A stretch of DNA of 41,615 bases from a virus, in the IMG/VR virus record IMGVR_UViG_3300037156_000432, positions 1-41,615 of that record; one strand, written 5' to 3'. Within the stretch, counting starts at the first letter, position 1; each line of letters begins with the position of its first letter. Of the stretch, positions 3,905-36,055 are shown one piece after another. The translations under genes were made by a program, and so were the position numbers. The notes under the pieces are model-generated. The model saw only the letters and a list, made by a program, of their open reading frames with translations, made no database searches and had not been told where the DNA came from.

Positions 3905-4244
<340 letters not shown>

Positions 4245-4252
<8 letters not shown>

Positions 4253-4621: not shown

Positions 4622-6292
4622 TCAGGCTGGGTCAGCCTGGGCCTCGCCGAGGTCGAAGCCGCAGGCGTAGTTGACCGCGTAGGCGATCAGTAGGCCGATG
4701 GCCTCGGCGCGGGCGTCGCTGTTGTCGCGATGCACGTCGACGGTGCAGATTTCCTCGCCATTGGCGTCGTACACGCCGCCAGCGTTGTCGCCGGATCGCG
4801 CGGTCCATCGTCCGCCAGCGCCAAGTGTGGCCAGGACAACCCGAAGTTCCTCGCGGTCCGTGATGGGCGCTTCGATCAGCGCGCGCATGGCCTCAAGCGC
4901 CTTGGCGTCTTCGGCGGCTTGCGGATCTTCGTCGTCCTCAGCCTGAGCGCCGGCCGGCTTCACGGCCGGTTCGTCGGGGTTGAGGAACCTGGTCGCGTAG
5001 CGGCCGGTCAGGTTGACGATGTGGGCGGCCTGCCGCGCCTGCCACAGATCGTCGGCGTCGACGGCGTTCGGCGAGACGTTCCAGAGCCTCAGCCATTCGC
5101 GCCCGGCTTCGGTGATCGTGCCCAGCCAGCCGAGGCCGGCGCCCGGGTTGATGAAGGCGGTCAGGCGCGCGTCGTTCAGGGCCGAGCATTCGGCGGCCAG
5201 CCAGTATTGGCCGACGCGGGCGCCGCGGTAATCCTTGCCCGGGACGTCCACGCCGTCGTGGCAAATCTTGTGCGCCAGTTCGATCAGGACCAGGCGTTCC
5301 TTGGGGCTCAGGTCGGCCATGTCGCCGCTGAGCTTCGCCGCCAGGGCCTCGCTGAACGTCGCCTTGGGCCTCTCGGCCGGCGCGCGCTCGACCACTTCGG
5401 GCTTGCCTTCGCCGTCCAATGCCAGTTCCGCCGCCGGTTCCGGCGTCTTCACCGTCGGTATCAGCTTCAACGCGTCGTGAAGGGTCAGCTGGCCACTGGC
5501 GACCCAGCGTTGCGTATCGTCGTCCAGGCGCAGCAGGCGCCGGTGCTGCTGGACATAGGTCACCGACCGGCCGGCCAGCGCGGCGATCTCTTCGTTGCTG
5601 CGGCCGAGGTCGGCGAGGCGGTCGTAGCCGCGCCCGCGCTGGATGTGGTTCAGGTCGACGCGCTGTTCGTTCTCGATCAGCCCGGCCTCGATCGCGCGAG
5701 CTTCGTCGGTCACGGCCACGACCTGCAGGCGTTCGGTGTGGTCGGCGCTCCAGCGGCCGTCCAAGATCAAGAGGTCCCACGCGCGCCAGCGCCGCTCGCC
5801 GAACAGCAGTTGGTACTGGCCGCTCGCGTCCGGCTGGCGGACCTGGGGTTTGGACTGCAGGCCGTGCTCGAAGATGGAATCGGCCAGCCCCTCCAGTTCG
5901 GCCCGGTCGAAGCTGTCGCGGGCGTTGGCCGGATCGGGGACGATCTGGTCCCAGCGCAGGTTGGCGTAGCCGGCTTCCGCCTTCGCCGAGGCTTCGGCGG
6001 ACGCGTCCGCTTTCGGGGCGATGTTGTCCGCGCGGTCCAGGGCCGCGACCGCGTCATGCCCAACATCGGTCAATGCCGGAAAGGCGGTCGGCTCGCCGTC
6101 CGGCTTGCCGATCAGGCCGGCGGCCTCCAGCAGCTTGAGCGACTTGCCGGTGTTGGAATCGTCGCGGCCGATGGCGAGCGACAGACCCTTGATCGTGGTG
6201 TGAGAGCCGCCGCGCAAGGCGCGCAGCAGGTCGGCATTGAGCACGACAAGGGCGGTCAGCGACGTCGTCTTGGGAAACGCTTGGGCGTTCAT
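4622..6292 (-). CDS. ParB/Srx-fold nuclease-like protein, 556 aa
   Basis: The N-terminal region (about 1-85) looks like a winged-helix of MarR type. From about 112 a ParB N-terminal domain starts (LRWDQIVPDPANARDSFD) with the family box GERRWRA at 165-171 and ENEQRVDLNHI at about 207-217. A helix-turn-helix follows (NEEIAALAGRSVTYVQQHRR, about 233-252). The C-terminal 280 residues are a long variable extension. No ParA gene is visible, so plasmid-type partition is unlikely; phage relatives are usually annotated as ParB-like DNA-binding or nuclease proteins. The start is ATG 6292, overlapping the upstream stop as ATGA, with GGAG nine bases before it. It is the largest gene of the left operon. 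Confidence 0.85.
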   Translation of the reverse strand: MNAQAFPKTTSLTALVVLNADLLRALRGGSHTTIKGLSLAIGRDDSNTGKSLKLLEAAGLIGKPDGEPTAFPALTDVGHDAVAALDRADNIAPKADASAEASAKAEAGYANLRWDQIVPDPANARDSFDRAELEGLADSIFEHGLQSKPQVRQPDASGQYQLLFGERRWRAWDLLILDGRWSADHTERLQVVAVTDEARAIEAGLIENEQRVDLNHIQRGRGYDRLADLGRSNEEIAALAGRSVTYVQQHRRLLRLDDDTQRWVASGQLTLHDALKLIPTVKTPEPAAELALDGEGKPEVVERAPAERPKATFSEALAAKLSGDMADLSPKERLVLIELAHKICHDGVDVPGKDYRGARVGQYWLAAECSALNDARLTAFINPGAGLGWLGTITEAGREWLRLWNVSPNAVDADDLWQARQAAHIVNLTGRYATRFLNPDEPAVKPAGAQAEDDEDPQAAEDAKALEAMRALIEAPITDREELRVVLATLGAGGRWTARSGDNAGGVYDANGEEICTVDVHRDNSDARAEAIGLLIAYAVNYACGFDLGEAQADPA

Positions 6293-6477
6293 CGTTGCAG
6301 TCTCCGATGGGGTGAGGGCAGGCGGGGGTCGGCCAGGACGTCGGACGTGAAGCCGCCCACGCCGTCACAGAGGGCGCACTCGGGGCCGTCCGCGTCGCAC
6401 AGCGGGCAGTCGGTCCAGAGGCCGACCACGTCGTCGGTCAGGGCGTCGGGTGCGTCGAGGGCGATGGCGAGGCTCAC
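6289..6477 (-). CDS. small Cys-rich protein, 62 aa
   Basis: Starts at GTG 6477, which overlaps the upstream TGA as GTGA, and ends with an ATGA overlap into the ParB-like gene. The core CPLCDADGPECALCDGVGG contains two CxxC pairs with the Gly-rich spacing of a zinc-binding DnaJ-like zinc-ribbon repeat. The C-terminal tail is short and basic. Probably a small metal-binding adaptor; partner unknown. The coupling into the ParB-like gene suggests co-translation with it. Confidence 0.65.
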   Translation of the reverse strand: MSLAIALDAPDALTDDVVGLWTDCPLCDADGPECALCDGVGGFTSDVLADPRLPSPHRRLQR

Positions 6478-11857: not shown

Positions 11858-12246
11858 GGAGTTGGACGGTCGCGGCGTTGACGGACGGCGAGCGCACCTG
11901 GGGGCTTGCCGATGTCCTGGCGCTTGAGGCCGAGAACGCGCGCCTTCGGGGCCTGATTGGCGCGCCGGAACTGGCCGACTTCACAACCGGCGTGGTGCTT
12001 GAGGCGGCCCATCAGCGGCTGCGCTGGGGATCGGAACATGACGCGGGTAAGACGGCGGCGGACTGGTTTTGGCTGCTGGGTTATCTGGCCGGCAAAGCCC
12101 TCGCCTCGGCGATGTCTGGCGACACGGACAAATTGCTTCACCACTGCATTTCCAGCGGCGCCGTCCTTGCGAACTGGCACGCCCAGGCGAGCGGGCGAAA
12201 CCCCGCAATGCGCCCCGGAATCGATACGCCGGAGGTCGATGTATGA
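11854..12246 (+). CDS. conserved phage protein, 130 aa
   Basis: The central block (VVLEAAHQRLRWGSEHDAGK, ADWFWLLGYLAGKALASA, DKLLHHCISSGAVLANWHAQ) is one I have seen in many temperate phages. It is all-helical and resembles MazG-type nucleotide-binding helices in pattern (E-x-H-Q-R and E-H-D), but the MazG ExxE signature is incomplete. I do not assign an activity. An N-terminal segment of about 45 residues contains a short coiled-coil-like helix. ATG 11854 overlaps the methylase stop as ATGA, and its stop overlaps the primase ATG. Confidence 0.7.
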   Translation: MRSWTVAALTDGERTWGLADVLALEAENARLRGLIGAPELADFTTGVVLEAAHQRLRWGSEHDAGKTAADWFWLLGYLAGKALASAMSGDTDKLLHHCISSGAVLANWHAQASGRNPAMRPGIDTPEVDV

Positions 12247-13430
12247 CCTTGCGCCCGAATCTTGGCCCGCTGTTCGACAAGGCGCGCGCCGACGCCGATC
12301 TGGAGAAGGTCGGGGGTGTGAAGCTGTATGGCGGTGGCCAGCAGCGGCGCGGGGAATGCCCAATCTGTCACGCCTCCAAGGGCAAGAAGGCCGGCGGGGC
12401 GTTCGCGGCTTGGCCGAAAACCGCACGCTGGCATTGCTACAGCTGCGAGCGGTCCGGCGACGTTGTCGACCTGGAACACATCCTGCGCAGCCGCGGCGAT
12501 GAGACGCTGAAGGATGCGGCCGAACGGCTGGTCGGGACGAACTGGGCCAATCAGCCGGCGCCCGTCGCCGGGCCGCGCGTGTCGTCGTCGGCGCCCGATC
12601 CCGCCGACACATGGAAGCTCGATCTGGCCCGCGCGCTGTGGCTGGACAGCCGCCGAGCGCCGGGAACGCCGGTGGAGACCTATCTGCGCGCGCGCGGGAT
12701 CGCCGGGTGGGTGCTGGACAAGGCGCTGGGGCGGCTGCGCTACCATCCGGCGGCCTATCACCATGGCGGACCCGGGCGCGAGGTCTGTGCGCCGGCGATG
12801 ATCGGCCTGGTCAAGGTCGGGGCGGGCGCGACGGGCGGCGTGCATGTGACCTATCTGCGGCCGGATGGACGCGGCAAATCGGCGCTTGATCCGGCAAAAA
12901 AGATGTGGGGTCCGCAAGGGCTGGACGGCGCGCCCGGCGGCGTCTGGCTGACCTCGGTGAACGACAATGCCGGCCCGTTGATCGTGGCCGAGGGGATCGA
13001 AAGCGCGCTGTCGGCGGCGATGCTGATCGGCGGCGAATGCCGGATCGCCGCGGCGCTGTCGCTGGGGCATCTGCAGGGCGGATGGGTGCTGGACGCCTAT
13101 GGCCGGCTCGATCCGGACTGTGTGCGCGGCGATCCGGAACGGCCGCCGTTCCTGTGGGCCGCGCCGGCGGATCGGCCATGGAAGAGCGTCGTGATCGCCG
13201 TCGACCGCGACATGAAGCCGGTCAGGGTCAAATGCCGCAAAGCCGCCGGCGGCACATACCAGCGCGCCCTGACGGCGGACGAGCGGGCGCGGATCTGCGC
13301 CGCCCTGGCCGAAGACGCCTGGCGCCGGATCGGCACGCACGCCGTGCGTTCGATCGCGCCGGCGGCAGGGCGGGATTTCAACGATGAACTGTGCGCGCGG
13401 ATTCGCGACGGGTGGAGTGTCGCGGCGTGA
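12243..13430 (+). CDS. DNA primase (CHC2 zinc finger plus Toprim), 395 aa
   Basis: Makes RNA primers for phage replication. The N-terminal zinc finger uses Cys39, Cys42, Cys65 and Cys68 (CPICHASKG ... WHCYSC). A central linker domain follows (about 110-230, DTWKLDLARALWLDS, ETYLRARGI). The Toprim domain has the motif LIVAEGIESALSAAML (about 245-260) and the metal-binding SVVIAVDRDMKP (about 318-329), and the C-terminus ends RDFNDEL, typical of Toprim_3 phage primases. ATG 12243 overlaps the preceding stop as ATGA. It lies directly before the SF3 helicase gene, so together they form the replication module. Contains one copy of the dispersed palindrome (encoding THAVR). Confidence 0.9.
   Translation: MTLRPNLGPLFDKARADADLEKVGGVKLYGGGQQRRGECPICHASKGKKAGGAFAAWPKTARWHCYSCERSGDVVDLEHILRSRGDETLKDAAERLVGTNWANQPAPVAGPRVSSSAPDPADTWKLDLARALWLDSRRAPGTPVETYLRARGIAGWVLDKALGRLRYHPAAYHHGGPGREVCAPAMIGLVKVGAGATGGVHVTYLRPDGRGKSALDPAKKMWGPQGLDGAPGGVWLTSVNDNAGPLIVAEGIESALSAAMLIGGECRIAAALSLGHLQGGWVLDAYGRLDPDCVRGDPERPPFLWAAPADRPWKSVVIAVDRDMKPVRVKCRKAAGGTYQRALTADERARICAALAEDAWRRIGTHAVRSIAPAAGRDFNDELCARIRDGWSVAA
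13335..13349. repeat. dispersed 15-bp palindrome, copy 2
   Basis: ACGCACGCCGTGCGT inside the primase gene near its 3' end, read as THAVR. Perfect 7-bp arms. Confidence 0.85.
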
Positions 13431-13813
13431 GCGTTTGGCCACTTTTTGAATATTCGATCGACGAGTTCGACGGCGTGACAACGGCCGCGACCCGCCAGAA
13501 GGCGGTATGGGCCTTGTTTCAGGGCTATCGGGAGTCGGTCTGGCGCATCGATTTCGGCGAGTTTCTGCGGGTGCTGAAGATCAAGCGCCGCGTCAAGCCG
13601 CTGTTTGACGACGGCTATGGGTCAGTGCGCCGGCAGTACGGGGTGAATCCGCACATCGGGCAGCGCATCCGCCTGATCAACGAAGGCTCTCAGCCCGGCA
13701 AGGAAGGCAACGTCATCTATCCGGGACGGAGCACATGCATGGTGCACGTCGCCTATGATGACAGCCCTCATTCGGTGATCGTTCACCCGATGAATGTGGA
13801 GCTGCTGCCTTGA
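13427..13813 (+). CDS. hypothetical protein between primase and helicase, 128 aa
   Basis: Not recognised. GTG 13427 overlaps the primase stop as GTGA, and its stop overlaps the TTG start of the helicase. Begins MSVWPLFEYSIDEFDGVTTA and contains an N-terminal helical segment, a basic strand (FLRVLKIKRRVKPLFDD) and a beta-rich C-terminus (VIYPGRSTCMVHVAYDDSPH). Its sandwiching between the replication genes suggests a helper such as a loader or single-strand-binding accessory, but no signature supports one. Confidence 0.65.
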   Translation: MSVWPLFEYSIDEFDGVTTAATRQKAVWALFQGYRESVWRIDFGEFLRVLKIKRRVKPLFDDGYGSVRRQYGVNPHIGQRIRLINEGSQPGKEGNVIYPGRSTCMVHVAYDDSPHSVIVHPMNVELLP

Positions 13814-15408
13814 GCGCGGACGGTTCCTTCGATTTCGCGCCATCGGTCACGCCGGAAGAGCTGGCCAAGTTCGATCTGAACGACTTCGGCAACGCCATGC
13901 GGCTGATCCGGCTGATGGGCGGGATTATCGACGATGATGGGACAGTCAATGTCGCGCGCTCGACGCTGCTCTACCAGCTCGGCCTGGGGTGGGTCGGCTA
14001 CAACGGCCGGTTCTGGGACCGCAAGTTCGGCGAGCAGCTGGCGCGGCGCGCGGCGCACCAGGTGGGGCAAAAGGTCCGCGGGCTGCTCGACCTGATCAAG
14101 GACAAGGGACTGACGCCGAAAGACGCGATGAAGTTCATCGACGGGTGCGGCTCGCGCGGCGGGACCTCGGCGATGCTGGGGCAGGCCGAACCCTATCTGA
14201 CGGTGGAAATCGACGATTTCGACGGCCAGCCGATGACGCTGAATTGCCGCAACGGGACCGTCTGGTTGTTGAACGACGCTGGCGGCTTTCGCGCGGATCT
14301 TCGCCCGCACGACCCGGCCGACCGGATCACCCGCTATATCGACGTGGATTTCGACCCGGCGGCTGTGGCGCCGCTGTTCGTGGCGACGGTGGAAACCTCG
14401 CTGCCCGACCCGGAGCGCCGCGGTTTCTTTCATCGCGGGCAGGGCTATTCGACCACGGGCCATGTGCACGAGCAGGTGATGTTCATCTGTCAGGGCCTCG
14501 GCCGCGACGGCAAGTCGACGATCCTGGACGCCATCCGCGAGACCGTGGGCGGCTATGGCGCGGTCGGCAGCGTGGCGACCTTCCTGGACACCGGCCAGCG
14601 CAGCGCCGGCGACGCCTCGACCGATATCGTCAAGCTGGCCGGCGACATGCGCATGGTGGTGCTGAGCGAGCCGCCGCGCGGATCGAAGCTGAACGAGGGG
14701 CTGCTGAAGGCCTGGACGTCGGGTTCGCCGATCACCGCGCGCGAGCTGCGGGAAAAGCCGTTCGATTTTCGCCCTTGCGGCAAGCTGTGGATGGAATGCA
14801 ACGCGCTGCCGGTGGCGCGCGGCGACGATGACGGTCTGTGGCGGCGGATTCACCCGATCGTGTTCGATCACCAGATGGACGTCGCCGACGTCGACAAGCT
14901 GTTGCCGAAGAAGCTGCTGGCCGAGCGCGCCGGGATTCTCAATTGGCTGATCGCCGGCGTCGGCGACTGGTTGGCCCAGGGGCTGAAACCGCCGGAAAGC
15001 GTCACCCAGGCGCTGGATCAGTACCGCAAACTGTCCAGCCCGTTCGGCGACTGGCTTACCGAGCGCTGTCTGTTCGGACGGTCGGCCGAGGGCGAGCGGA
15101 CGCTCGTGAAGGAGCTTTACGCCGACTACAAGGCCTGGGCCGAGGATCAGGGCCACGACAAGCCGATGAGCCAGCGCTCCTTCGGCGACGCGCTGCATCA
15201 GCGCCAGGTGATCCTGGCGGGCAAGAATTCGGTCGGGCTGAAGTATCGCGGGCCGATCCGGCTGAAGACCATCAACGAACGCATGGCCGACCAGGAAGCC
15301 GCCGAATTGCAGGCTGTGCGCGCCGGCGGCTTCAAGGTCGGGCTCGATCTGGACGCGGCGCTGGAGCCTGGAAGTTACGAGCCGGACGAAGACGAGGGCG
15401 GCGCGTGA
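13810..15408 (+). CDS. D5-like superfamily 3 helicase / P4-family primase-helicase, 532 aa
   Basis: Unwinds DNA at the phage origin. The Walker A loop is GLGRDGKST (Gly231 to Thr237, Lys235 catalytic), preceded by the D5_N-type region (about 20-190, with LGWVGYNGRFWD and LTLNCRNGTVWLLND-like sequence). Walker B/motif C follow (IVKLAGDMRMVVLSEPPRGS and LWMECNALPVARGDDDGLWR). The C-terminal winged-helix region (about 395-500, LVKELYADYKAWAEDQ) is typical of phage/plasmid primase P4 family proteins. The start is TTG 13810, overlapping the upstream TGA as TTGA; no better start exists near. Downstream lies a repeat-rich region that may be its origin. Confidence 0.9.
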   Translation: MSADGSFDFAPSVTPEELAKFDLNDFGNAMRLIRLMGGIIDDDGTVNVARSTLLYQLGLGWVGYNGRFWDRKFGEQLARRAAHQVGQKVRGLLDLIKDKGLTPKDAMKFIDGCGSRGGTSAMLGQAEPYLTVEIDDFDGQPMTLNCRNGTVWLLNDAGGFRADLRPHDPADRITRYIDVDFDPAAVAPLFVATVETSLPDPERRGFFHRGQGYSTTGHVHEQVMFICQGLGRDGKSTILDAIRETVGGYGAVGSVATFLDTGQRSAGDASTDIVKLAGDMRMVVLSEPPRGSKLNEGLLKAWTSGSPITARELREKPFDFRPCGKLWMECNALPVARGDDDGLWRRIHPIVFDHQMDVADVDKLLPKKLLAERAGILNWLIAGVGDWLAQGLKPPESVTQALDQYRKLSSPFGDWLTERCLFGRSAEGERTLVKELYADYKAWAEDQGHDKPMSQRSFGDALHQRQVILAGKNSVGLKYRGPIRLKTINERMADQEAAELQAVRAGGFKVGLDLDAALEPGSYEPDEDEGGA

Positions 15409-15611
15409 TGGGCGTGCAACTTCGTGCAACGGACATTGACGGACAGACGGACATTCGGCGTCCGGGTTTCACCCCGCGCGCGCCTGACCGGCGGCGAAAA
15501 CGGACGGTGGATTGTCCGTGGCCGCGCCAGTGTCCGTCCGCCAAGCCTTTGACTTTACAGCGGGAACGGACAGTCCGGACAGTACGGACACTGTTCCGGT
15601 GTGGAGGATGA
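15408..15611 (+). CDS. possible small ORF over the repeat region, 67 aa
   Basis: An ATG at 15408 overlaps the helicase stop as TGATG and opens 68 codons ending in CGG-ACA-rich sequence (ERTVRTVRTLFRCGG). The product is basic and low in hydrophobic residues and is dictated by the CGGACA repeats. It is probably not a functional protein; the coupled start is the only argument for it. Kept as a low-confidence call because it fills most of the gap. Confidence 0.2.
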   Translation: MGVQLRATDIDGQTDIRRPGFTPRAPDRRRKRTVDCPWPRQCPSAKPLTLQRERTVRTVRTLFRCGG

Positions 15612-15661
15612 AGGCGGCCGTCATGCACGAAGTATGCGGGGCGTCATTGTCCGTTTGTCCG
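15430..15661. repeat. ten CGGACA/TGTCCG repeats, candidate replication origin or operator
   Basis: CGGACA occurs at 15430, 15440, 15448, 15567, 15576 and 15585; the inverse TGTCCG occurs at 15513, 15531, 15648 and 15656. They form clusters of three, two, three and two, with alternating orientation and 8-10-base spacing in most clusters, close to one helical turn. The region follows the helicase gene. Iteron arrays of this kind serve as initiator-binding origins or operators; which one applies is not shown. Confidence 0.6.
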
Positions 15662-15685
15662 TTGGGTATGGTTGGGGGTTAGGTG

Positions 15686-16372
15686 ATGGGTTTTGTTGAA
15701 AGACAAAAAGAAGAATCCCTTACGGATCACTTGATCCGCAATGCCGATGCGTTGGGGCTGGACGACGCACAGCGTGCGCGGCTGGATGAGGCGTGGCGGC
15801 TGCAGCATGCGGTCGGCGGCCATTGGGATCGCCACGCCGCCAGCGTGATCGCGCTGGAAGTCCAGCAAGGCTTGGACGCAGGCGTAGACGCTGCCGCCAA
15901 GGCCCGCGGCGAAAAGGTGGCGCGCTTCAACGACGCCGGCGCGCGGCGGATCAAGTCCCGCGACGGTCTGGCGGCGCTGTTCGAGAGCGGCGCGTTGACG
16001 TCGTCGGCCTACTTTGCTGGCCACGCCTATCGCCTGCTGTTCGAAACCGCCGGCACAGGCGCTGGCCTGGGCTCGCAATTGGAGGAACGCGTTCGCGCGC
16101 CCAGTGGCTCAACGCATGGCGCTGTGGCTGCCGGCCTGTTCCGCGCCTATGCCGGCGTTCGCCTGACCGCCTTCGACCGTGCGATCGTGCGGGCGGACAA
16201 GACCGGCCGTGCGCTGACCGCTGTGCGTCTGATCGCTGGCGAAGGCCAGACGCTGAGCAGCCTCGCGCCGGGCGGGACGGTCAAGCAACGCTGGCGTGGT
16301 GCGCTGATCCTCGGCCTGGGCGTGGTTGCCGCGGGCGTCGCCGATCCAAGGTGCTTGCGAATCAGGGACTGA
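15686..16372 (+). CDS. unrecognised protein, possible late regulator, 228 aa
   Basis: The N-terminal half is helical (ESLTDHLIRNADALGLDDAQ, then ASVIALEVQQGLDAGVDAAA). From about 85 to 125 it has a basic segment and a pattern RDGLAALFESGALTSSAYFAGHAYRLLFE, which resembles small alphaproteobacterial DNA-binding domains of the 'GxLT-xQ-xAG-RYR' type (weak, from memory). The C-terminus contains AFDRAIVRADKTGRALTAVR and a hydrophobic end. ATG 15686 was chosen over the adjacent GTG 15683. It is the last early gene, followed by a terminator and then the terminase genes, which is the position of lambda Q. A late-gene activator or antiterminator is a reasonable but unproven guess. Confidence 0.6.
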   Translation: MGFVERQKEESLTDHLIRNADALGLDDAQRARLDEAWRLQHAVGGHWDRHAASVIALEVQQGLDAGVDAAAKARGEKVARFNDAGARRIKSRDGLAALFESGALTSSAYFAGHAYRLLFETAGTGAGLGSQLEERVRAPSGSTHGAVAAGLFRAYAGVRLTAFDRAIVRADKTGRALTAVRLIAGEGQTLSSLAPGGTVKQRWRGALILGLGVVAAGVADPRCLRIRD

Positions 16373-16445: not shown

Positions 16446-16553
16446 CGTGCCCGATCAACCCCTTAGCGGCTGAAAAGGGTCCTTACCAGGCACCCCGGCG
16501 CCATGCGGTGGGGCAGAGCGCTCAATCGGTTTGGTCTGAGCGGTTCAAGCATT

Positions 16554-17147
16554 ATGAACGCCGTGAACTCGCTGATGAGCCAATCGGAGTTCGCGGCGCA
16601 TCGCGGCGTGGGCAAGTCGGCCGTCAGCAACTGGAAAAAGGCGGGACTGGTCGTTTTCGCGGAAGGGGAGGGCGGCCTTCTGCTGGTCGACGTCCAGCGG
16701 ACGAACGCCAAGCTGAACGCCAAGCTCGATCCGACGCGGGGACGGCCGGCGCTGGGCGCGAAGCAGCCCGGGCTGGAATTTGACGCGCGGCCAGATCGCG
16801 GCGACCAGCTGGGCGACGTGCGGCTTGAGCTGATCAAGGCTCAGACCACGTCCAAGCAACTGGACAACGCCCGGCGGGCCGGGGACCTGGTCCCGCTGGC
16901 CGAGGCCGAGCGGAAAATGGCCGAGATGGGACGCCTGGCGCGCGAGCGCATGCATTCCGTCGCCCGCTCCCTGGCCGAGCGCCTGGCGGCGGTCAGCGAA
17001 CCGCGGGTGATCGCCTCGCTGCTGGGCGCCGAGATCGATCAGGCGTTCGGAGAATTGGCCGACCAGGTGGACGGCGGCGCGCTGGACGACGGCGAAGACG
17101 CCGCCGAAACCACCCTGGAGGCCGACGCAGGCCCGGACGAGACGTGA
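16554..17147 (+). CDS. terS: terminase small subunit (Nu1-like), 197 aa
   Basis: Recognises the packaging site and recruits the large subunit. The N-terminal helix-turn-helix (MSQSEFAAHRGVGKSAVSNW, about 8-27) is the lambda Nu1-type winged helix, followed by a linker and long helices (VRLELIKAQTTSKQLDNARR ... LAERLAAVSEPRVIASLL), the oligomerisation part, and an acidic tail. ATG 16554 is used; ATG 16575 (MSQSEF) is equally possible because neither has a strong ribosome site. The stop overlaps the large-subunit GTG as GTGA. Position and fold agree. Confidence 0.85.
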   Translation: MNAVNSLMSQSEFAAHRGVGKSAVSNWKKAGLVVFAEGEGGLLLVDVQRTNAKLNAKLDPTRGRPALGAKQPGLEFDARPDRGDQLGDVRLELIKAQTTSKQLDNARRAGDLVPLAEAERKMAEMGRLARERMHSVARSLAERLAAVSEPRVIASLLGAEIDQAFGELADQVDGGALDDGEDAAETTLEADAGPDET

Positions 17148-23534: not shown

Positions 23535-23894
23535 ATGGCCGACGCTTCCGATCCTGTCGCGGCGCAAGCCGAAGCTGAAGCCGCTGCAAAGGCTGCAGCC
23601 GACCAGGCTGCAGCCGATGCCGCCGACAAAGCCGCCGCCGACAAAGCCGCCGCCGACAAAGCCGCCGCCGACAAAGCCGCCGCCGACAAAGCCGCCGCCA
23701 AGGCAGCGAAAACCGCCGCGCCGACCCTGATTATCTGGGGCGAACCGGGCCATGAAAAGCTGCGCTGCGGCGATGCGATCAAGGTTCCCGCCGACATCGC
23801 CGAAAACCTGCGCGCCGCCGGCCGCGCCCGCATCGCCTCCGCCGCCGAGATCAAGGCGCTGGGCGACGATGCGCCGGTCTACGACAGCTTCTAG
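23535..23894 (+). CDS. Ala/Asp/Lys-repeat phage head protein, 119 aa
   Basis: The first half is low complexity: Ala-rich with five exact copies of the DKAAA pentapeptide, probably a long helix. The second half is a small domain (APTLIIWGEPGHEKLRCGDA, then VPADIAENLRAAGRARIASA). ATG 23535 follows a strong AGGAGG ribosome site. The gene lies between the decoration protein and the head-tail joining protein, the usual position of a head-completion or connector component. Function unproven. Confidence 0.7.
   Translation: MADASDPVAAQAEAEAAAKAAADQAAADAADKAAADKAAADKAAADKAAADKAAAKAAKTAAPTLIIWGEPGHEKLRCGDAIKVPADIAENLRAAGRARIASAAEIKALGDDAPVYDSF
23625..23699 (+). repeat. five tandem 15-bp repeats (GACAAAGCCGCCGCC)
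   Basis: Five identical contiguous 15-base units encode DKAAA within the head protein at 23535. Perfect identity suggests recent expansion, and copy number may differ in related phages. Confidence 0.9.
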
Positions 23895-31912: not shown

Positions 31913-32304
31913 GAAGATTCTTGAGCCGCGCGGCACGCACGCCGTGCGTCCTGGGAACCTTCGACTGCTGTCTGTGGCTGGCCGACTGGGTGATGGAATG
32001 CCGTGGCGGCCCGGACCCAGTCGCCCGCTGGCGCGGCCACTATTCGACCGAACTGGGCTGCGCGCGCCTGCTCAAACGCGAAGGCGGCATGGTCGCCCTC
32101 GTTCATTCCGCGGCGGCGACAGCAATGCTGGCGGCGACGAACGATCCGCGCCCGGGCGACATCGGCCTGGTCTGGGGCATGACGCCGCGCGGCCTCGGCG
32201 ACATTGGCGCGATCAAGACGGCGAACGGGTGGGCGATGCTCAAGCACGGCGGGGGACTGGCCATGACGCCGCGGGTGTTCGTCAAGGCGTCCTGGGCGGT
32301 CTGA
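31900..32304 (+). CDS. DUF6950-like tail tip protein (NlpC/P60 position), 134 aa
   Basis: A small protein with LGTFDCCLWLADWVMECRGG near the N-terminus: the FDC-x-L-x3-W pattern resembles DUF6950 proteins, which stand in the place of lambda K (NlpC/P60 peptidase). The candidate catalytic Cys in FDCC and the His in KHGGGLAMTP would be the pair in such a fold; a third residue is not obvious. It overlaps the previous gene by 13 bases. A copy of the dispersed palindrome sits in the first codons (RTPCV), just before the FDCC box. Confidence 0.65.
   Translation: MADLGRFLSRAARTPCVLGTFDCCLWLADWVMECRGGPDPVARWRGHYSTELGCARLLKREGGMVALVHSAAATAMLAATNDPRPGDIGLVWGMTPRGLGDIGAIKTANGWAMLKHGGGLAMTPRVFVKASWAV
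31935..31949. repeat. dispersed 15-bp palindrome, copy 6
   Basis: ACGCACGCCGTGCGT near the start of the DUF6950-like gene, read RTPCV, the same peptide as copy 1 in the left arm. Confidence 0.85.
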
Positions 32305-32305
32305 C

Positions 32306-34726
32306 GTGCCTCAGTTCATTGTCGCCTTCATCGCCGAAGCGCTGATCGAGGCGTTGCCGGTCCTTTCGGATGTCGCGATCACGGTCATCGCCAATGTCGT
32401 CGGCTATGGCATTACTGGACTGGCCCTGACGGCGATCGGGCGCGCGCTGGCGCCCGGCATTCCCTCGCCGGCGGCGGGGGCGCAAGCCGTGCTGCAACCC
32501 ATCCCGCCGCGCATCCGCGGCTATGGCGTGGCGCGCCTTGCGGGCGCCTTCATGTTCGACGAGGCCAAGAACAACTTTCTATATCTCGTCTTCGCCCTGC
32601 ACGACGGCCGCATCGACAGTTTCGGTCAGTGGTACATGAACGATGACCGGGTGGCGATGAACCCGGCCTACGATAGCGGTCCGCCGGCCGTCGTCACCCT
32701 GCCGGACCAGGCCTACAGCAATGGCCGAATTCGGGTGCAGACGCGGCTGGGCCTGCCCACGGAAACCGCCTACGCCTCCCTGGTCGCCAACGCGGACATG
32801 GGGCCGATCTGGGACTCCACCGCCCGCGGCGACGGCATCGCCAGCTACTACATGGCCTGCGAAGGCGGGCGGCTGCAGGACTTTCCGACCAGCTATCCGA
32901 ACGGCAAGCCGCAGCCGTCCAACGCCGCGCGGCTGGCCTGCGTCTACGACTGGCGCGACGTCGCCCAGTCGCCGACCGATGAGACCACCTGGAAATGGTC
33001 GGCCAATCCCATCGTCTGCCTGATCAACGATCTGTGGACGGAGCACGCCTACGACTGGGACCGCGAGATCGCGCCCAACCTGGCCAGCCACACTGCCGAG
33101 GCCGACGTCTGCGACCAGACCTTTGCGATCCTCAACAAATGCACCCGGGTCAACCAGGCCGCCAACGCGACCCAGACCAACATCGTGCTGGAGGATGTGA
33201 CCGGCCTTTCCATCGGCATGACCTTCTATGTCGACAGCCAGGCCTTCGTCGTCACCAGCTTCACGTCCGACCCGCCGCTGGGGACCAATGTCGGCTGGAG
33301 CGGAACTGGCCTCGCCGCGGCCGTCGGCGTCGGCGCGGTGGCGCGGTGGAAGGCCGATCCGGGTTCGCCGGGGTCTGAGCCGCGCTACCAGGTCAACGGC
33401 TTCTACAACCAGGACAACGCCCTCTCCGACATCGTCACCAGCTTCCTGCAGACGTGCGATGGCTGGATGAGCCGCGACGGCGCCGGCGCGATCGTCGTCC
33501 GCGCCGGCCACTATTACGACCCGACCGTCACCCTGACTGCGGCCGACATCACCGACTACGCCTGGCAGTCCTATGTGGTGGAGGAACAGGCCTGCAACAC
33601 CCTGCGCGTCCAGTTCTGCTCGCCGGCCAATGACTATAGCGTTGTCGATACCGACGACTGGGCCGACGAAGATGATATCGCCGCGCGCGGCGGCGAGGCG
33701 ATCCCGCAGCCGTTCACCCTGAACTGGGTCCAGTCCAATGGGCAGGCCCGGCGGCTGGCCAAGCGCGAGATGTCGCGCCGGCTGGCCGCGACCGGCACCA
33801 TCAAATGCAAGCTGTCGGGCCTGCGCGCGCTGGGCGAACGCTATATCCGCGTCCAGCTGGGCGCGGGCGAGATCGACGAACTGGCCGAGGCCGTGGTCGA
33901 GGTAACCGACGCGCCGGAGATCGGCGACGACGGCATGTCGATCACCTTCACCGTCCGCACGGCCGACCCCAACATCGACGCCTGGAACGCGGCGACCGAA
34001 GAAGGCGACGGCCCGTCCACCGGAACCCGGATCGTCGGCGAGGCCCTGATTGCGCCGACCGTGACATCCGCCGCAATCTTTTTCGACGGCTCGACGCTCG
34101 GCGTGCGCTTGCGCCTTGTCGTCGTTGGCCCGGCGCGCAACGATCTGACCTGGGCGGCGCGCTGGCGGATTTCCGGCGGGGTGAGCTGGAACGAGGCGAA
34201 CTACAGCGACGCCGATCCCGGCGGCGGCGTGACACTGGAGACCGGCTTCGTCGCCCCGGACACGACGGTGGAATACGAGGTCGCCTATCTGACCGGCGCG
34301 GGCTCGCTATCGCCCTGGAGCACGCTGGCCTCGATCTCCACGTCCACCGCGGCCGAACCGCCGTCCGTGCCGACCGGCATCACCGCGACCGGCGGCGAGG
34401 ATTCGGCGACCATCGGCTGGCGCAACCCGTCGTCGTTCAACTTCTCCACCGCGCGGGTCTATCGCGCGGCGTCGGGCGCGGGCTTCGGCGCGGCCGTGGC
34501 CATCGGAACCGACCTGGTCGGGGCCTTGGGCGCAATCATGGCTTACGTCGACGCCGGCATCGGCGCGGGCGCCTATGACTATTTCGTGGTGGGCAAGAAC
34601 GCCGCCGGCGTCGCGTCCAGTCCGGACGGCCCGGCCACCGCGACCGTCGTTCCGCGCCACATCACGACGGAGGCGGGCGACCGCCTGACCGACGAAAACG
34701 GCAACGAAATCACCGGAGAGACCTGA
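32306..34726 (+). CDS. tail tip / host-specificity protein (J-like), 806 aa
   Basis: GTG 32306 follows the previous stop by one base. The N-terminus has a hydrophobic stretch (about 2-50) common in such phage hub proteins, followed by PPRIRGYGVARLAGAFMFDE and YLVFALHDGRIDSFGQWYMN, which match siphophage central tail hub proteins. The C-terminal third contains fibronectin type III-like repeats (SVPTGITATGGEDSATIGWR, about 690-770). Such proteins form the tail tip and bind the host receptor or the fibres. The next two genes are fibres, which supports the call. Confidence 0.82.
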   Translation: MPQFIVAFIAEALIEALPVLSDVAITVIANVVGYGITGLALTAIGRALAPGIPSPAAGAQAVLQPIPPRIRGYGVARLAGAFMFDEAKNNFLYLVFALHDGRIDSFGQWYMNDDRVAMNPAYDSGPPAVVTLPDQAYSNGRIRVQTRLGLPTETAYASLVANADMGPIWDSTARGDGIASYYMACEGGRLQDFPTSYPNGKPQPSNAARLACVYDWRDVAQSPTDETTWKWSANPIVCLINDLWTEHAYDWDREIAPNLASHTAEADVCDQTFAILNKCTRVNQAANATQTNIVLEDVTGLSIGMTFYVDSQAFVVTSFTSDPPLGTNVGWSGTGLAAAVGVGAVARWKADPGSPGSEPRYQVNGFYNQDNALSDIVTSFLQTCDGWMSRDGAGAIVVRAGHYYDPTVTLTAADITDYAWQSYVVEEQACNTLRVQFCSPANDYSVVDTDDWADEDDIAARGGEAIPQPFTLNWVQSNGQARRLAKREMSRRLAATGTIKCKLSGLRALGERYIRVQLGAGEIDELAEAVVEVTDAPEIGDDGMSITFTVRTADPNIDAWNAATEEGDGPSTGTRIVGEALIAPTVTSAAIFFDGSTLGVRLRLVVVGPARNDLTWAARWRISGGVSWNEANYSDADPGGGVTLETGFVAPDTTVEYEVAYLTGAGSLSPWSTLASISTSTAAEPPSVPTGITATGGEDSATIGWRNPSSFNFSTARVYRAASGAGFGAAVAIGTDLVGALGAIMAYVDAGIGAGAYDYFVVGKNAAGVASSPDGPATATVVPRHITTEAGDRLTDENGNEITGET

Positions 34727-34729
34727 ACC

Positions 34730-36055
34730 ATGCGACCTGTGCGAAACAGCGTCTCGGCGCTGGCGCTATGCGCCCTGCTGTGCGCCAACGTCGCGCCTTC
34801 GGCGTCTTGGGCGGCGGATGTAAAACCTTCGGCCCTCCCGGCCGGCATTGCCGTGACCAACAGCGACCTGATCATCGCCGACCAGGTGGTAAGCGGCGTC
34901 CTGACCACGGTAACCATCACGCCGCTGCAGATCGAAAACCTGCTCGCCCCGGCGACGATCGCGCGCAGCGGTTCGGCTTCGGATCTTGGCAGCGGCACGC
35001 TGCCCTGCGGGCGCCATCCGGCGCTGACCGGCGACGTCACTGCCGCGGCCAATGGCTGCGTCACCGCTCTCGCCAACATCCCGGCGCTCAGCGGCGTCAA
35101 CCTGACCAACCTGAACGCGTCCAATCTCGCATCCGGCACGATGCCCTGCGGGCGCCATCCGGCCCTCACCGGCGATGTGACGGCGCTGGCCAATGGCTGC
35201 GTCACGGTGCTTGCCAACATCCCCGCGCTCAGCGGGGTCAATCTGACCAATCTGAACGCCTCCAATCTCGCGTCCGGTACGATACCCGCGGCCCGGTTGC
35301 CCAATCCGACCGCATCTACGCTGGGCGGCGTCGAGAGCCTGGCGTCAACCACCCACCAGTTCCTGACCTCGATTTCCACCCTCGGCGTGCCCGGCGCGGC
35401 CCAGCCCGCCGCTGGCGACGTCAGCGGCCTTGCCGCGTCGGCCACCACCGACACCACCAACGCCTCGAACATCAGTTCCGGAACCCTGGGCGCCGCACGG
35501 CTTCCCAATCCAAGCGCCTCGACCCTGGGCGGCGTCGAGAGCATCGCCGCCGCCTCGCACACCTGGATCAATGCGATCTCGACCTCTGGCGTCCCGTCGC
35601 AGACCCAGCCGACCGCGAGCGATGTCTTGGGCGTCTCAGGGTCAGGCGTCGCGGCGGCCGGCTATATTGGCGAGCACATCAGCACCACCGCCGTCGCCTG
35701 CACCACCAACACCGGCGCCACCAATCTCGGAACGGCCAACATCGCCTCCGTCAGCTTCACGGCGGGCAGCTGGGAAATCTGGGGTGTTGTCGGCATCGAC
35801 CCGGCTGGGACCACTGTCGTGTCCGCCCTGCAAGGGTCGATCTCCACCACCTCCGCGACCCAGGGCGGCTCGCTCGGATCGGTCGGCGTCGGCCAGCTCG
35901 CTTCGCCGGAGACCGGGTCCACCGAGACGCTGACGGTGCCTCCGCAGGTGTTCCATTTCTCCGGCGCGACAACCGTCTACCTGGTCGGAACGGCGGTGTT
36001 CTCGACGTCCACGGCCGGCCTGTGCGGCCAGCTCATGTCGACCCGCGTCGGCTGA
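34730..36055 (+). CDS. tail fibre protein with an N-terminal signal peptide, 441 aa
   Basis: The first 29 residues look like a Sec signal peptide: basic MRPVRNS, a hydrophobic core ALALCALLCANVAP and a cleavage region SASWAAD. The body is Ser/Thr/Ala/Gly-rich and beta-repetitive. It includes a 47-residue unit repeated twice and a block NPxASTLGGVES occurring twice (LPNPTASTLGGVESLAS and LPNPSASTLGGVESIAA). The C-terminal 120 residues (SFTAGSWEIWGVVGIDPAGT) look like a receptor-binding beta domain. ATG 34730 has GGAGAG nine bases upstream. A signal peptide in a phage fibre is unexpected: it may be a relic or support adhesion through membrane transit. Confidence 0.75.
   Translation: MRPVRNSVSALALCALLCANVAPSASWAADVKPSALPAGIAVTNSDLIIADQVVSGVLTTVTITPLQIENLLAPATIARSGSASDLGSGTLPCGRHPALTGDVTAAANGCVTALANIPALSGVNLTNLNASNLASGTMPCGRHPALTGDVTALANGCVTVLANIPALSGVNLTNLNASNLASGTIPAARLPNPTASTLGGVESLASTTHQFLTSISTLGVPGAAQPAAGDVSGLAASATTDTTNASNISSGTLGAARLPNPSASTLGGVESIAAASHTWINAISTSGVPSQTQPTASDVLGVSGSGVAAAGYIGEHISTTAVACTTNTGATNLGTANIASVSFTAGSWEIWGVVGIDPAGTTVVSALQGSISTTSATQGGSLGSVGVGQLASPETGSTETLTVPPQVFHFSGATTVYLVGTAVFSTSTAGLCGQLMSTRVG
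34995..35276 (+). repeat. two copies of a 141-bp (47-codon) direct repeat
   Basis: The unit begins near TGPCGRHPALTGDV-type codons (PCGRHPALTGDVT) and ends NLTNLNASNLA; the second copy starts 141 bases after the first. The DNA copies differ at scattered third positions, so the duplication is not new. It lies inside the fibre gene. Confidence 0.8.

Follow-up and report, generated by a model that had tools for sequence, protein, structure and literature searches.

In the window, by which we mean the whole virus record of 41,615 bases analyzed here, an array of short repeats directly follows the gene for a 532-aa SF3 helicase of the D5/P4 family (13810..15408, plus strand), the proposed origin-binding initiator. 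The classification of this upstream gene as a P4-family/D5 helicase is based on profile as well as structure matches: the NCBIfam model TIGR01613 ("phage/plasmid primase, P4 family") was matched with 182 bits against a cut-off of 108.7, the Pfam matches comprised D5_N (E = 2.7e-18), DUF5906 and Pox_D5, the PHROG matches were to primase/helicase families, and the best Foldseek matches of the helicase model were to D5-like folds, namely the ASFV PrimPol and poxvirus D5/E5. Upstream of the helicase lies a separate primase-like gene (DUF7146 + Toprim; 12069..13430, plus strand), which was matched by Pfam DUF7146 (E = 2.3e-23) and a PHROG DNA primase family, while its Toprim_3 match fell under the cut-off. 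On the other side of the array, a plus-strand gene at 15683..16372 (ATG at 15686) encodes a 229-aa protein of unassigned function that showed no match in Pfam, PHROG or NCBIfam; its one distant match is a protein of sewage phage sp. 438212 (MW091528), likewise encoded upstream of terminase genes. The genes for the small terminase (16503-17147) and the large terminase, both assigned by Pfam and PHROG, start approximately 0.8 and 1.5 kb downstream of the array; beyond them, numerous long ORFs share their strand.

Helicases closely related to this one were found in genomes of Caulobacter, Phenylobacterium and Brevundimonas, which suggests a host among the Caulobacterales. A large serine recombinase (Resolvase + Recombinase + zinc ribbon) encoded on the minus strand at the left contig end (1-1953) suggests a temperate phage, and a ParB-like gene (4622-6292, minus strand) may serve partition or a ParB-type regulatory function. 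A hexanucleotide repeat at 3907-4241 (55.8 copies of AGCCGT, 86% match) was considered as a second origin or parS; it lies inside a small minus-strand ORF (3905-4252), whose putative product is a glycine-rich peptide also containing Tyr, Ser and Asp, and was read as a coding repeat instead. Further tandem repeats are located to the right of the terminase genes, at 23619-23699 (15 bp × 5.4, 100% match) and 34993-35291 (141 bp × 2.1).

A motif search of the window placed ten exact copies of CGGACA or its complement TGTCCG within 15430-15661 (15430+, 15440+, 15448+, 15513-, 15531-, 15567+, 15576+, 15585+, 15648- and 15656-). This confirmed the ten repeats of the preliminary description, as well as their grouping into clusters of three, two, three and two that switch orientation. 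An eleventh, degenerate forward copy, ACGGACG at 15500-15506 (core CGGACG from 15501), had been overlooked there. In the aligned origin of one relative (L014), the counterpart of this copy is an exact CGGACA. The array starts about 20 bp past the helicase stop and, including the degenerate copy, has the layout +++ / +-- / +++ / --. Its first cluster, kept in relatives, comprises three forward copies of ACGGACA (15429..15453; copies at 15429, 15439 and 15447), the second the degenerate forward copy (15500) together with two reverse copies of TGTCCGT at 15513 and 15531 (15500..15537, mixed orientation). The third, a conserved block of the aligned origins, holds three forward copies exactly 9 bp apart (15566..15590; 15566, 15575 and 15584), and the fourth two reverse copies of TGTCCGT 8 bp apart (15648..15662; 15648 and 15656), of which relatives keep one or two. 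Start-to-start spacings within the clusters are 10, 8, 18, 9, 9 and 8, so that the previously described spacing of 8-10 bases holds with 18 as the sole outlier; the three tandem 9-base units described at 15567-15593 are also present.

Based on the density of CGGACA in the rest of the window, 0.19 copies would be expected in these 232 bp (Poisson P(≥10) = 1.5e-14; approximately 3e-12 once corrected for the choice of window), and no second cluster comparable in CGGACA was found elsewhere in the 41,615 bases. Within the 400 bp 3′ of the helicase, the commonest 7-mer is ACGGACA with nine copies, compared to a mean of 2.3 and a maximum of 4 in 100 dinucleotide-preserving shuffles; ACGGACA is the better notation for the core than CGGACA. 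Between the second and third clusters (~15541-15552), a conserved non-iteron box appeared promising in eight aligned origins and was rejected, since its consensus pattern was absent from the wider set of loci.

Next, we investigated the conservation of the array among relatives, which were found by profile searches; single-protein searches for close relatives returned none, and a DNA-level search of phage records gave no match to the window. In the set of closest relatives (L013-L019, n = 7, helicase identity 43-67%), all seven carry an array of similar general layout right 3′ of the helicase stop, with a more degenerate form in L018. The preliminary description had chosen as a test of its reading whether relatives exist that share the replication genes without the repeats; the result among these seven speaks in its favor. 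In L019, nearly all sites read CGGACG rather than CGGACA over approximately 240 bp, a concerted change as expected with one DNA-binding protein reading all sites.

A wider survey covered 68 non-redundant loci, comprising the window and helicase relatives 29-67% identical, in which the 400 bp 3′ of the helicase were scored. At least five copies of some 7-mer were present in 50/68 loci, in every one of the 50 on both strands, compared to shuffle controls with means of 2.1-2.7 and a maximum of 4. For 49/68 loci, no other 400-bp stretch of the same locus matched this 7-mer count. The motif itself varies widely between the surveyed loci. The remaining 18/68 loci, with fewer than five copies of any 7-mer, may carry degenerate arrays or none. 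Arrays were also found 3′ of distant helicase relatives in Lactobacillus phage A2, Methanoculleus virus Blf4 and mycobacteriophage QuincyRose, as well as in Bordetella phage BPP-1, where one gene separates helicase and repeats; the neighboring genes differ between these four phages. Multiple short repeats directly 3′ of the gene are thus conserved together with the helicase.

As the array sits in the gap ahead of the 15686 gene and the structural operon, the copies of ACGGACA could alternatively represent an operator bound by a regulator, possibly the 15686 product, controlling this gene and the late genes. A homologue of the 15686 gene is indeed located behind the array in six of the seven closest relatives (L013-L017 and L019). 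However, L018 keeps its array without a detectable homologue, so that the repeats are not confined to loci with this gene. In its place, L018 has an RfaH/NusG-like gene (5849-6406; matches below the curated cut-off). An operator is further disfavored by the lack of a match between the 15683 protein and known DNA-binding families, by the many phages in which an array follows the helicase gene among other neighbors, and by the covariation of the motif with helicase residues described below. We therefore regard an operator as very unlikely.

The second neighbor to be considered is the terminase. A cosB- or pac-like site for the small terminase, marking the start of packaging, would fit the short distance to the terminase genes and a change in the sign of the GC skew at approximately 17.1 kb, and lambda-type cosB indeed consists of repeated small-terminase sites. 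The repeat sequence, however, does not track the terminase. In L016, L017 and L019, TerL is strongly diverged (28-31%), yet the CGGACA/CGGACG array is kept; conversely, L034 and L061 share 48-50% identity in TerS and 57-65% in TerL, but only 31-32% in the helicase, and their array motifs differ. Moreover, the array of phage A2 is located approximately 10 kb away from the nearest annotated terminase gene, and a packaging site can hardly account for the repeats. This double dissociation, together with L018, shows that the array is associated with the helicase rather than with the terminase or with the 15683 gene. Both the operator of 15686 and the terminase site are largely excluded as explanations, whereas a secondary regulatory effect of helicase bound at the array is still conceivable.

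In order to gain insights into how the helicase might recognize the repeats, each well-filled helicase column was compared with each iteron base across 57 non-redundant loci with a callable motif. The proposed iteron reader is a winged-helix-like domain near the C-terminus (approximately residues 411-490; 15040..15279, plus strand), for which AlphaFold2 predicted helices at 411-419, 433-446 and 455-470, followed by a strand at 483-485. Confidence in this model was modest (mean pLDDT 60; C-terminal block approximately 65-87); the predicted helix 455-470 and the strand after it would form the winged-helix-like arrangement, and a weak Pox_D5 match covers residues 423-464. For base 6 of the iteron, the top column by shuffle z-score among all columns was residue 456 (z = 12.1; mutual information 0.71 of 1.05 bits), which is Arg456 in the window (codon 15175..15177, plus strand) and lies at the start of the predicted recognition helix. 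Residue 472, just past this helix (Lys472; codon 15223..15225, plus strand), was the top column for both base 1 (z = 15.2) and base 3 (z = 9.0). Lys456 occurred with G or C at base 6 in 12/12 cases and non-Lys residues with A in 42/45, while Arg472 occurred with "GA" at bases 2-3 in 5/5, although the corresponding Fisher tests ignore relatedness.

To account for common descent, independent pairs were drawn from a tree built without the C-terminal domain. The pairs followed the predicted direction in 5-6 of 6 cases for residue 456 and in 4 of 4 for residue 472, with none opposite; the sign test per trait was underpowered and short of significance (median p = 0.06 for 456 and 0.125 for 472), and pooling the pairs gave 10/10 (p = 0.002, ignoring possible shared branches). 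Two further viral scans and 390 Caulobacter-family genomes yielded mostly loci already in the discovery set and eight that were new for the code test (L287, L295, L297, L301, L298, L299, L334 and L335). All eight agreed at both 456 and 472, with the residues placed by pattern and by eye and with near-identical helices in L297/L301 and L298/L299. Six relatives (L331, L316, L289, L290, L285 and L300) have other motif types and no CGGACA-type array and were excluded from the test of the code. A clear exception is L236, which combines T456 with G at base 6, and two very divergent rows fail as well. For base 2 alone, no helicase column dominated, and Lys472 was seen with both GG and AG.

On balance, these comparisons of sequences favor a two-residue recognition code for origin iterons across the phage family, which we consider somewhat more probable than its absence, with residue 456 setting base 6 and residue 472 setting bases 2-3. 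Under this code, Lys456 would correspond to G or C and Arg, Thr, Ser or Ala to A at base 6, while Arg472 would correspond to GA, Met or Leu to AG and Lys mostly to GG. No such residue-to-base covariation was found in the literature searched; it is the new part of the finding, the kind of origin being already known.

The array that directly follows the helicase gene, conserved with it and covarying in sequence with two of its residues, is very probably an iteron-type replication origin recognized by the adjacent helicase. The preliminary description had left the choice between such an origin and an operator of the 15686 gene; its first option is now strongly supported by the conservation of the array with the helicase and by the covariation, and the second is not, as L018 keeps its array without a detectable homologue of that gene. 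Putative binding of the iterons by the C-terminal domain of the helicase is supported by the same covariation, while the later steps proposed here, i.e. two hexamers, a melting site and origin firing, are inferred by analogy. As a first step, the C-terminal winged-helix domain would bind ACGGACA; base 6 would be read by residue 456, where the recognition helix starts, and bases 2-3 by residue 472. The eleven sites, which may be viewed as two similar half-arrays of converging sites, would then position helicase subunits, perhaps as two hexamers. Finally, the assembled helicases would melt the weak segment 15680-15725, load and proceed with unwinding in the outward direction, with the upstream primase making the primers.

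This candidate DNA-unwinding element (15680..15725, neither strand specified) is easily melted and lies to the right of the array. Among the separate 30-mers of the window, the one at 15693 (-35.0 kcal/mol), located approximately 30 bp right of the last cluster, ranks second weakest. Across 47 loci including the window, the weakest 30-mer within the 450 bp 3′ of the helicase mostly begins between +250 and +310 and typically ranks among the weakest 0.2% of its own locus. The assignment as melting site is only suggestive, because the segment extends into the beginning of the next gene, and a high A+T content is common around gene starts. A clearly AT-rich core between two sets of iterons, as in the origins of PICIs, is absent in the window.

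The proposed arrangement is in line with known systems. The origins of SaPIs and PICIs, in which rep is followed by ori, are located directly 3′ of the initiator gene and made of iterons (PMC6092414; Ubeda et al. 2007 as cited in PMC7581432), an organization that PMC6092414 describes as found in "no other known bacterial replicon". In the helicases SaPI Rep and SCCmec Cch2, the C-terminal domain mediates binding to iterons that are located downstream of the respective gene (PMC7581432). As in SaPIs and PICIs, the putative origin of the window is immediately 3′ of the gene for a self-loading initiator helicase and has short iterons in several sets, and the same reading of the iterons by the helicase C-terminal domain is proposed. 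Unlike these satellites, the window represents a phage with its own terminase genes, its iterons are arranged in four clusters of alternating orientation, and its least stable DNA lies right of all clusters (15680-15725) and not between two iteron sets. The array therefore fits the broad kind, an iteron origin 3′ of a P4-family/D5 helicase, and not the strict PICI description. For SCCmec Cch2, the isolated C-terminal domain binds a putative origin downstream of the gene and requires the direct repeats (PMC7581432). Cch2 resembles the window protein as a D5-type helicase with priming encoded separately, but its site comprises just three iterons of 5 nt, and its replication in vivo is unproven (PMC7581432), compared to eleven 7-nt sites in the window. 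For plasmid pRN1, the essential origin region is also directly downstream of the replication gene (PMC4234260), with a stem-loop instead of an iteron array.

Among phages, Lactobacillus phage A2 has an annotated origin (NC_004112, rep_origin 32208-32717), a helicase approximately 32% identical and, like the window, repeats in both orientations directly 3′ of it. A2 differs by its ACGGGAG-type motif, by a centre that is clearly AT-rich and by its primase-annotated gene, which at 2.3 kb is longer and includes the helicase portion. In the phage contigs surveyed, arrays 3′ of the helicase are widespread, and the A2 annotation had already implied one case. Phage P4 alpha is a primase/helicase of the P4 family, the family matched by the window protein with TIGR01613, and binds short iterons through its C-terminus. 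TGAACA variants of the iteron in this survey presumably resemble the P4 repeat. In contrast to the window, P4 alpha combines primase and helicase in one fused protein, and the P4 copy-control site is separate from the origin.

The GC skew gives no support for an origin at the array. The cumulative skew of the window is lowest at the contig ends and peaks at 17.1 kb; a minimum away from the array had been named in the preliminary description as evidence against its reading, and this result formally counts against an origin here. Since the annotated origin of A2 is approximately 1.7 kb from its detrended skew minimum, whereas the BPP-1 array, like that of the window, is near the detrended maximum, skew appears to be a poor guide and is not decisive here. 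The change from positive to negative skew near the terminase genes (~17,100) occurs whatever the gene strand, and the third-position skew of the top strand falls from +0.2 to +0.3 at the far left to about -0.15 to -0.3 at the right; the switch is possibly linked to the direction of packaging or replication.

A skew that does not point to the array would also be compatible with a second, regulatory helicase site resembling a copy-control element, with the firing origin elsewhere in the genome, and phage P4 does have a copy-control site besides its origin. Nevertheless, the window contains no other CGGACA cluster, the equivalent array of A2 lies within the annotated rep_origin, and the equivalent place in SaPIs and PICIs is the origin (PMC6092414, PMC7581432), which makes a purely regulatory site improbable.

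Overall, these findings assign a probable replication origin to phages related to prophages of Caulobacter, Phenylobacterium and Brevundimonas, and they show that phages with this helicase commonly carry repeat arrays directly behind the helicase gene, an origin layout once considered specific to phage satellites. They further provide a sequence-based hypothesis for origin recognition by D5/P4-family helicases, a step known for few members, which yields single-residue predictions that can be checked by gel shift. If the code is true, the helicase and all sites of the array switch specificity together, and the replication specificity of these phages would be predictable from the protein sequence alone.
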